Assembly: GCA_902610995.1 (NCBI GenBank)
Contig: CACLXU010000004.1
Coordinates: 1 to 64,000, forward strand
DNA from: an uncultured SAR86 cluster bacterium
GTDB lineage: Bacteria; Pseudomonadota; Gammaproteobacteria; Magnimaribacterales; TMED112
Direction: 5' to 3'
DNA: 64,000 nucleotides
The notes under the pieces were generated by a model. That model saw only the letters and a program-made list of their open reading frames with translations. It was not told where the DNA came from and ran no database searches. Made by a program: the position numbers and the translations under genes. Position 1 is the first letter of the stretch. Each line of letters opens with the position of its first letter. Positions 51,254-57,030 of this stretch are shown here, one piece after another.

Positions 51254-51611
51254 GCTAATTGCTTTATTTTGTTTACTGGCTAATTCAGAGCTACTCTACA
51301 AAAATCTTTCAGAGGAGCAACTAGTCCGACTAAATTATCTGTCTGACAATATTAGATGCCCAAAATGTTCATATGGCAATGTATCAAGTTCTAATGCTCC
51401 AATTTCGAAGGATATAAAAAATGAAATTGCAACGCTAATTAAAGATGGTTACTCTGATGATGAAATATTTGAATTAATGAAAAATCGTTATGGAAACTAT
51501 ATTTTGTTGAATAGTGGCGAGGACAAAATGCCAATTTATTTAATACCACTGATTGCTTTAATTATATCCATATTGGCAGTAACGACTTATACTATTAAAA
51601 AATCTAAATGA
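51231..51611 (+). CDS. ccmH: CcmH (CycL-type), short form
   Basis: The ORF track begins at ATA/alternative codon 51201, but ATG 51231 (126 residues) starts the signal peptide MNLKYFFKLIALFCLL. The redox motif is NIRCPKCSYGNVSSSNAPIS (RCPxC kept). A C-terminal membrane helix follows. This is the CcmH N-terminal module only; the TPR module that is fused in E. coli or separate as CcmI elsewhere is not in the cluster. smc follows with a four-base overlap. Confidence 0.92.
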   Translation: MNLKYFFKLIALFCLLANSELLYKNLSEEQLVRLNYLSDNIRCPKCSYGNVSSSNAPISKDIKNEIATLIKDGYSDDEIFELMKNRYGNYILLNSGEDKMPIYLIPLIALIISILAVTTYTIKKSK

Positions 51612-53811
51612 GACTTAAAAGCTTAAAATTAGCAGGATTTAAAAGTTTTGTTGATCCAATTCAAATTGAATTCCCAGGGATTATGTGTGGCATTGTTGGT
51701 CCAAATGGATGCGGCAAATCTAATATTATTGATGCCATAAAGTGGGTAAAGGGCGAACTTTCAGCAAAAAGTCTTCGAAGTGAAAGCTTGCAAGATGTAA
51801 TTTTTAATGGTTCTGATAATAGAAAACCAGTCAGCCATTGCTCTGTGGAGTTGGTTTTTGATAATTCAGAAAATTTTCTTGGTGGAGAGTACCTTAAATT
51901 TGAAGAGGTGAGTGTTAAACGAGAAATGGGAAGAGATGGACAATCTACTTACTTTATCAATAATGCTGTTGCTAGAAGAAGAGATGTTCAGGATCTGTTC
52001 TTAGGAACCGGACTAGGCTCAAATAGTTATGCAATTATTGAACAGGGCATTATTTCAAGCCTAGTGGGTGCAAAACCAGAAGAACTTAGAAGTTATGTTG
52101 AAGAAGCAGCAGGCATTACTAAGTATAAAGAAAGAAAAAGGGAAACAGAGTCGAGAATTAGAAGGACTGCAGAAAATATTGCCAGACTTAAAGACCTAGA
52201 GGATGAGGTAAAAAGATCAATTCGAAGGCTAAATGCTGAAGCTAACCTAACTACAAAGTACAAAAAACTCAGAGAACAAGAACAGCAGTTTCAGAAATTT
52301 CTTATTAGTGCCGAATTAAAAGAGCTTGAAGAAAGAAAGAAGGCTTCGGAGAAAGAGAATAAGTCAATAGATACAGATATTGAAGGCATCGATGCAAAAA
52401 GAATTTCAGTGATTTCTAAAAGAGATGTTGCTAAAACAAAACTTATGGAAGGCCTCAAAATCTTGGAAGATGAGCAAAGAAAATTCTTTGAAACTGGAGC
52501 AAAAATATCTTTGGTGGAAGAAAAAGATAAATCCATTAAAAATAAGATAGACGATTTAAATTTAGAGAAGGATAAAATCATAAAAAACCTTTCAAACCTA
52601 AAAGATTCAGAAAAATCTGAGAGTGAAAATAAAACCGATGTTCCAAAAGATTACGAAGGTGACCTTAAGTTAAAAGTGCAGAATGAAGTTTCAAATCTAA
52701 AAATAAAGAGTGAAGAGGTTAAAAAAGAAGTAGGACAATCTCTAGGAAATTTTTGGAAAGACGGATATAAGTTTGGGCTTGGACAAGCTTCTGAAAGCAC
52801 GGAGACACTATCGGTACTAAAAAAGCAATTTGAAGAGCGACTTGTCTCAATAGAGTCTGAAATTATCAAAATAACAAATGAAAATGAGTCTGAGAAGTCA
52901 GGATTAGCCGATCTGGTTCAGGCGCGGAAAGACTTAGAGCTAAAAGTAATTGATCATCGTGCGCAACAAGATAAATCCAATGAGGAGCTACGCAATTTAG
53001 AGGGAGAAATATCCAAGCTTGAAACTCAGAAAGATACAATTATCCAAGATAGAAATGAAAAGGAACTCAATAAAAGAAGTATTGAAATCGAGGTAAATGA
53101 AAAGGTCGATCGACTTAAGACTTTTTCAGAGGTCAAAGATATTGAGGGCGAGGTTATTGATATAACTCAGTCTTTAGAAAAATTACAAAATAAAATTATG
53201 AATTTAGGTCCCATAAATTTTGCTGCGCCTGAAACCCTTGAGGCTGAAAAGAAACGAAAGGAAACTCTATCAGAACAAATTAATGAGCTAGAAACCTCAC
53301 TATCTAAATTAGATGAGGCTATAAAGAAAATTGATAAAGAATCAAATAAAACATTTCATGAGTGCCTAAACTCAGTAAATAAGTTTCTTGAAGAAATGTT
53401 TCCAAAATTATTTGGTGGTGGGTTCTCAAAGTTAAATCTGTTAGATGATTCCGAAGATAGTGGTTTAGTTTTAATGGCTAGACTTCCAGGAAAGAAAAAT
53501 ACAAAATTATCGCAACTTTCTGGAGGTGAGAAAGCACTTACCGCTCTTGCTTTGGTGTTTTCTTTATTCTCAATTAACCCTGCACCATTTTGTTTGCTGG
53601 ATGAGGTTGATGCTCCTTTAGATGATGATAATACTCTTAGGTTTATTAATCTTGTTTCTGAAATGTCTGCAAAAGTGCAATTCATTTTCGTAACACACAA
53701 TAAAATTTCTATGGAGAAAAGCTCTCACTTGCTTGGAGTAACAATGAGAGACCTTGGTGTTTCAAAAGTTGTATCTGTAGATGTAGAGCAAGCAATGGAG
53801 TTAGCGCAGTC

Positions 53812-53815
<4 letters not shown>
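51608..53815 (+). CDS. smc: Shortened, hinge-less Smc chromosome-segregation ATPase
   Basis: 735 residues against about 1150-1200 for bacterial Smc. The N-terminal head is normal: LKSLKLAGFKSFVDP, Walker A GPNGCGKSN (residues 31-39), then GTGLGSNSYAIIEQG about 133 and YVEEAAGITKYKERK about 163. The C-terminal head is normal: NLGPINFAAPE about 532, signature LSQLSGGEKAL about 634, Walker B CLLDEVDAPLDD about 662. The ~355 residues between are charged coiled coil around a short middle (SLGNFWKDGYKFGLGQASES, 378-397); no recognisable hinge. The frame is unbroken. It is followed by zipA and ligA as in pseudomonads. scpA and scpB are not in the window. Confidence 0.93.

Positions 53816-57030
<3,215 letters not shown>

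Follow-up and report, generated by a model that had tools for sequence, protein, structure and literature searches.

Bacteria of the SAR86 order carry an Smc protein that has no hinge, the domain regarded as a defining and necessary part of Smc. We describe the protein from a 64,000-nucleotide stretch of DNA (hereafter the window) belonging to an uncultured SAR86 bacterium, and find that the absence of the hinge is a trait of the whole order. The explanation that we favour, and consider probable, is a smaller working Smc-ScpAB ring whose dimer contact lies in a short helical tip and no longer in a hinge; the contact between tips is one that we infer. An abundant ocean order thus appears to run an essential machine without a part long held necessary.

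The smc gene and its identity

The assembly that carries the window amounts to 0.86 Mb in 21 contigs and is 80% complete; the nearest SAR86 group of its source genome includes TMED112-A1 (CP097968.1). In the window smc is a single intact open frame (51608-53815, + strand), which begins with an ATG at 51608, ends with a stop codon at 53813-53815 and encodes 735 residues. The N-terminal head covers residues 1-169 (51608..52114, + strand), with Walker A (GPNGCGKS) at residue 31 and EEAAG at 165. It is followed by the N-terminal arm strand, a single continuous predicted helix (residues 170-337; 52115..52618, + strand), by a tip at the place of the hinge (residues 338-396; 52619..52795, + strand) and by the C-terminal arm strand, which runs as far as the joint (residues 397-532; 52796..53203, + strand). 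The joint motif NLGPINFAAPE occupies residues 532-542 (53201..53233, + strand), and the remainder, stop codon included, consists of the neck helix and of the C-terminal head, which carries LSGGE at 637 and Walker B (FCLLDE) at 661 (53234..53815, + strand). The split ABC head is complete: Walker A, the signature and Walker B are all in place. An earlier note, made from the letters alone, had described just such a continuous frame of 735 residues with heads and joint intact, and every motif that it named was located.

Several lines of evidence bear on the identity of this protein. Against the NCBIfam model SMC_prok_B (TIGR02168) it scores 721 bits, where the curated cut-off is 567, and the match is split around the absent middle. 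Smc is its best profile match, with Rad50/SbcC, RecN and ASRP far weaker. The heads match solved Smc heads, the neck and joint of SAR86 Smc are in register with those of ordinary Smc, and in a comparison within Pseudomonadota the SAR86 proteins match gammaproteobacterial Smc better than the Smc of other Pseudomonadota. Immediately downstream, zipA (53812..54462, + strand; ZipA_C, 1.5e-08) overlaps smc by 4 bases, and ligA, the gene for NAD-dependent DNA ligase, lies at 54452..56434 (+ strand). The order smc-zipA-ligA is retained at this SAR86 locus, and this synteny identifies the gene as the orthologue of ordinary smc. Judged by the curated profile and the gene neighbourhood, the window protein is a true SAR86 orthologue of bacterial Smc.

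What sets it apart is its length. Ordinary gammaproteobacterial Smc has a mean of 1167 residues (about 1165-1200), and subtraction of motif positions gives about 790-805 residues from EEAAG to the joint. The same distance is 365-369 residues throughout the window genus. The earlier note had put it at about 355; the shortening stands, and the figure for the window protein becomes 367, start to start.

Absence of the hinge

A Pfam search of the window protein found no hinge domain, and a six-frame search of 26 SAR86 genomes gave zero matches to the hinge model PF06470, even at E <= 1. A hinge moved to a separate gene was therefore ruled out. The sensitivity of PF06470 is incomplete (191/232 genomes sampled from the class), as it misses some ordinary gammaproteobacteria, and for this reason we made a profile specific to the class, using 14 gammaproteobacterial hinges. 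Control Smc proteins from other gammaproteobacteria were matched in 27/27 cases, all at E <= 3e-44. Among 140 SAR86 Smc sequences, a partly overlapping set, the profile matched none, and the best E was 1.7. In the AlphaFold2 model of the window protein the N-strand helix is unbroken over residues 170-337, two helices follow at 347-363 and 369-390, and the C strand starts at 397; there is no beta structure in the tip and no hinge fold at residues 330-410. The earlier statement that no hinge fold is recognisable is thus borne out by Pfam and by a prediction that places only two short helices in this region.

Distribution across SAR86

Within the genus, smc encodes 733-739 residues in the 17 relatives where it was found, apart from one open frame of 759, at 72-86% protein identity. 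We found smc in 174/199 SAR86 genomes, and every complete frame listed is shorter than about 1010 residues. Open frames measure about 729-749 residues in families f1 and f3, 809-851 in f2 and f4, and 998-1010 in part of f3, the proteins from annotated starts being slightly shorter. All four of the four sampled families are hingeless (730-1010 residues), and the hingeless gene is present in single-cell genomes, in metagenome-assembled genomes (MAGs) and in a complete chromosome. In the class and phylum outside SAR86, the full-length frames listed are about 1140-1440 residues long, mostly 1160-1250, and shorter ones come mostly from fragmented assemblies. The earlier note had written of a miniature Smc in one organism: a miniature hingeless Smc it is, and the single organism has given way to the order.

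These relatives also dispose of one explanation for a short gene. The window genome is an incomplete MAG of 0.86 Mb, in which an assembly deletion or a pseudogene might be suspected. Against this, the genus relatives have the same length, single-cell and complete genomes included, and the dN/dS of smc is about 0.035; we regard the chance of such an artefact as negligible, the shared short form having already refuted it. As the earlier note had proposed, relatives served as a check, and the full-length gene with a hinge that would have told against it was not seen in them, single-contig and single-cell genomes included. In a codon comparison of a close pair, dN/dS is 0.035 overall; the heads have about 0.01, the arms 0.03 and the tip 0.25-0.30, values that place the heads under strong purifying selection. 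The argument against decay made at the outset is strengthened by this selection, by the retained ScpA, ScpB and ParB (see below) and by the smc-zipA-ligA synteny.

Arms and tip

Alignment to ordinary gammaproteobacterial Smc is free of gaps on the N side up to about residue 315-330, and on the C side from about 120-135 residues ahead of the joint. The N strand is shorter by about 163 residues and the C strand by about 170, figures that are arithmetic from helix limits, with the hinge of ordinary Smc assumed to span residues 500-660, and not a separate measurement. On these figures the loss is balanced between the strands, as the pairing in an antiparallel coiled coil demands.

In part of family f3 the arms have become longer again. 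The 995-residue Smc found there holds a duplicate of the entire hairpin nested inside the first, with its own N strand, C strand and joint motif, and the protein has one tip. A BLAST self-match shows nothing of this internal duplication, which becomes clear through pairwise alignment with relatives: aligned to residues about 221-551 of the short forms, the insertion scores 519-627, and shuffles score at most 128. The predicted structure runs from the N strand (170-335) through the second N strand (343-456) to the tip (463-485), and back through a C strand with the joint copy (615-657) and the outer C strand to the true joint (758-798). Exactly one tip is kept, at the end of the hairpin. This protein occurs at L147:3001-5985, L059 and L200-L206, with joints always at 649 and 792, and the head tree has the long form at three positions (g9 with g21; g17; part of g15). 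A single origin followed by several losses, or else transfer, seems to account better for the equal length and joint positions than would three separate origins of identical forms.

The tip of the window protein has about 55 residues and a predicted helix-loop-helix form, with the conserved pattern FWxxGYxxGxG. The glycine/aromatic stretch that the earlier note had singled out here is real, with W383 conserved in 94% and G386 and G392 in 100% of 18 genus sequences. In all four of the four families a tip insert, predicted or read as helical, is retained between the strands; profile comparison detects no homology that would indicate a common origin of the family tips, and the matches fall on the adjoining arm. 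A Pfam search of the tip found no known domain. Weak PDB profile matches of the window-type tip to insect pheromone-binding protein (best E 0.007) were taken as chance, and those of the f3 tip, mostly to designed helical bundles, as an effect of composition.

Partner proteins

ScpA and ScpB were found in 25/26 SAR86 genomes sampled across 16 genera, and ParB in 12/12. The genome search suggested by the earlier note located scpA and scpB in the window genome, adjoining and both full-length. MukB (PF04310) was absent from 12 of 12 SAR86 genomes searched, and a second smc or MukB as a substitute was rejected. Four genomes, from families f2 and f4, have sites that resemble parS with 0-1 mismatch; at 0-1 mismatch to the consensus none was found in the window genus, though ParB is present.

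The C-terminal part of ScpA normally binds the Smc head. One single-contig relative from the genus (L217:9211-9717; G012:C1, about 895.2-895.7 kb) has an ScpA without this part, in which 169/278 residues align, and its ScpB begins at the end of the shortened ScpA; this may be real erosion of the kleisin or an assembly fault. In a second single-contig genome, CP097968.1 (G007), neither ScpA nor ScpB was matched. The gyrA-scpAB block that precedes the syntenic stretch in the window genome was not found in 810-830 kb of CP097968.1, and around 812-832 kb the edge gene aligns over only 200/401 residues. The missing block and the half-aligned edge gene make an assembly or rearrangement cause likely, and for the same reasons we have not accepted a biological loss of ScpAB. 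We count both gaps against a working Smc-ScpAB complex.

A probable smaller ring and its rivals

That a hingeless Smc dimerises another way, as the earlier note proposed, is on the sequence evidence the likeliest explanation. We envisage that on the SAR86 stem matched shortening removed the hinge together with the outer portion of each arm strand, and that the arms would now meet at the short helix-loop-helix tip, most likely a minimal dimer contact standing in for the hinge. Two Smc with ScpA and ScpB would then form a closed, smaller ring, with arms of about 170 residues and an estimated 25 nm, as against about 50 nm. As elsewhere in bacteria, ATP would still drive the heads to engage and ParB would still assist loading. 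We infer that SAR86 Smc dimerises at the tip, closes the complex and moves or loops DNA. Work on Bacillus subtilis favours such a ring. Smc(Zh), in which the hinge has been exchanged for the zinc hook of Rad50, allows normal growth on rich medium, therefore the fold of the dimer domain is exchangeable, and arm length counts more than that fold (Buermann et al. 2017, PMC5344682). The natural arm lengths of prokaryotes have modes at 238, 341 and 515 residues and a possible minor mode at 163, near our rough estimate of 170 (PMC5344682).

The main rival, which we hold to be possible and rather unlikely, keeps the tips apart. ATP and a ScpA bridge from neck to cap would hold two Smc together at the heads alone, as a V or clamp rather than a ring that closes at either end, and the tip would merely cap the coiled coil. 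Heads and ScpAB are indeed retained, and the tip evolves fast, without a known dimerisation motif. It is the fastest-changing part of the protein, with a mean pairwise identity of 28% across the genus, its model confidence is moderate (block pLDDT about 53-74), no CXXC zinc hook lies between residues 171 and 540 in any of 43 SAR86 Smc proteins, and the tips of the different families show no detectable homology; we count all of this against dimerisation at the tip. A clamp of this kind does not sit well, however, with a tip insert between the strands in all four families, with purifying selection on the tip, with its invariant glycines and near-invariant tryptophan in the window genus, or with the single terminal tip that remains after arm doubling, which we count in favour of a tip dimer. 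We think it rather unlikely that a whole order has a condensin joined only at heads and kleisin, without contact from tip to tip, which moves DNA with neither hinge nor closed ring. Another rival, that SAR86 Smc no longer acts as a condensin, having turned for example to RecN- or Rad50-like repair or tethering, and has lost loop extrusion, appears improbable. The half-length arms and non-hinge tip do recall RecN, Rad50 and the archaeal ASRPs, and the two single-contig genomes with shortened or unmatched ScpA and ScpB point the same way, but the two partners in nearly all genomes across 16 genera, the retained ParB with the parS-like sites of f2 and f4, the match to Smc above the curated cut-off and the smc-zipA-ligA synteny all speak against such a change of role.

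Comparison with known systems

Our literature search, with most subscription papers outside its reach, found no description of the SAR86 hingeless Smc. The closest natural parallel is a group of 'hinge-less' SMCs from ocean data, placed in Actinobacteria (Sussfeld et al. 2025, PMC12153180). Like the SAR86 protein these are abundant in the ocean, have neither hinge nor zinc hook and are known from sequence only; they belong to another phylum, and partners, tip and arm loss are not described in the parts of that paper available to us, and the paper makes no mention of SAR86. The retrieval used there demanded 80% length cover against seeds, so the SAR86 forms of 735-830 residues should have escaped it. 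Taken together, the two cases suggest that the hinge was lost more than once among ocean bacteria.

Rad50/SbcC, RecN and the archaeal ASRP (ClsN/Sph) share with SAR86 Smc the ABC heads, an antiparallel coiled coil and the lack of an SMC hinge. They have no ScpA or ScpB, whereas SAR86 keeps both, and Rad50 and ASRP dimerise via a CXXC zinc hook (PMC9389158), which SAR86 Smc does not have. The Smc(Zh) and Mini-Smc of B. subtilis likewise carry an unrelated domain for the hinge, or shortened arms, and function at certain lengths; these are engineered and use a zinc hook, whereas the SAR86 protein is natural and has none, and the shortest arm region found to function is 253-267 residues (PMC5344682), as against about 170 in SAR86. 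Close SAR86 relatives have natural arms of about 170, 210 or 300 residues, and with a hinge lost across the order while heads, ScpA, ScpB and ParB are intact, they offer a set of proteins for asking which parts of the ring loading and loop extrusion require; the 735-residue form would be an unusually small natural Smc, useful for structural and single-molecule work. Set beside the canonical Smc of Smc-ScpAB (TIGR02168), SAR86 Smc has the same heads, neck, joint, inner arms, ScpA/ScpB and zipA-ligA synteny, and differs in its missing hinge, in about 165 fewer residues per arm strand and in a helix-loop-helix tip of about 55 residues.
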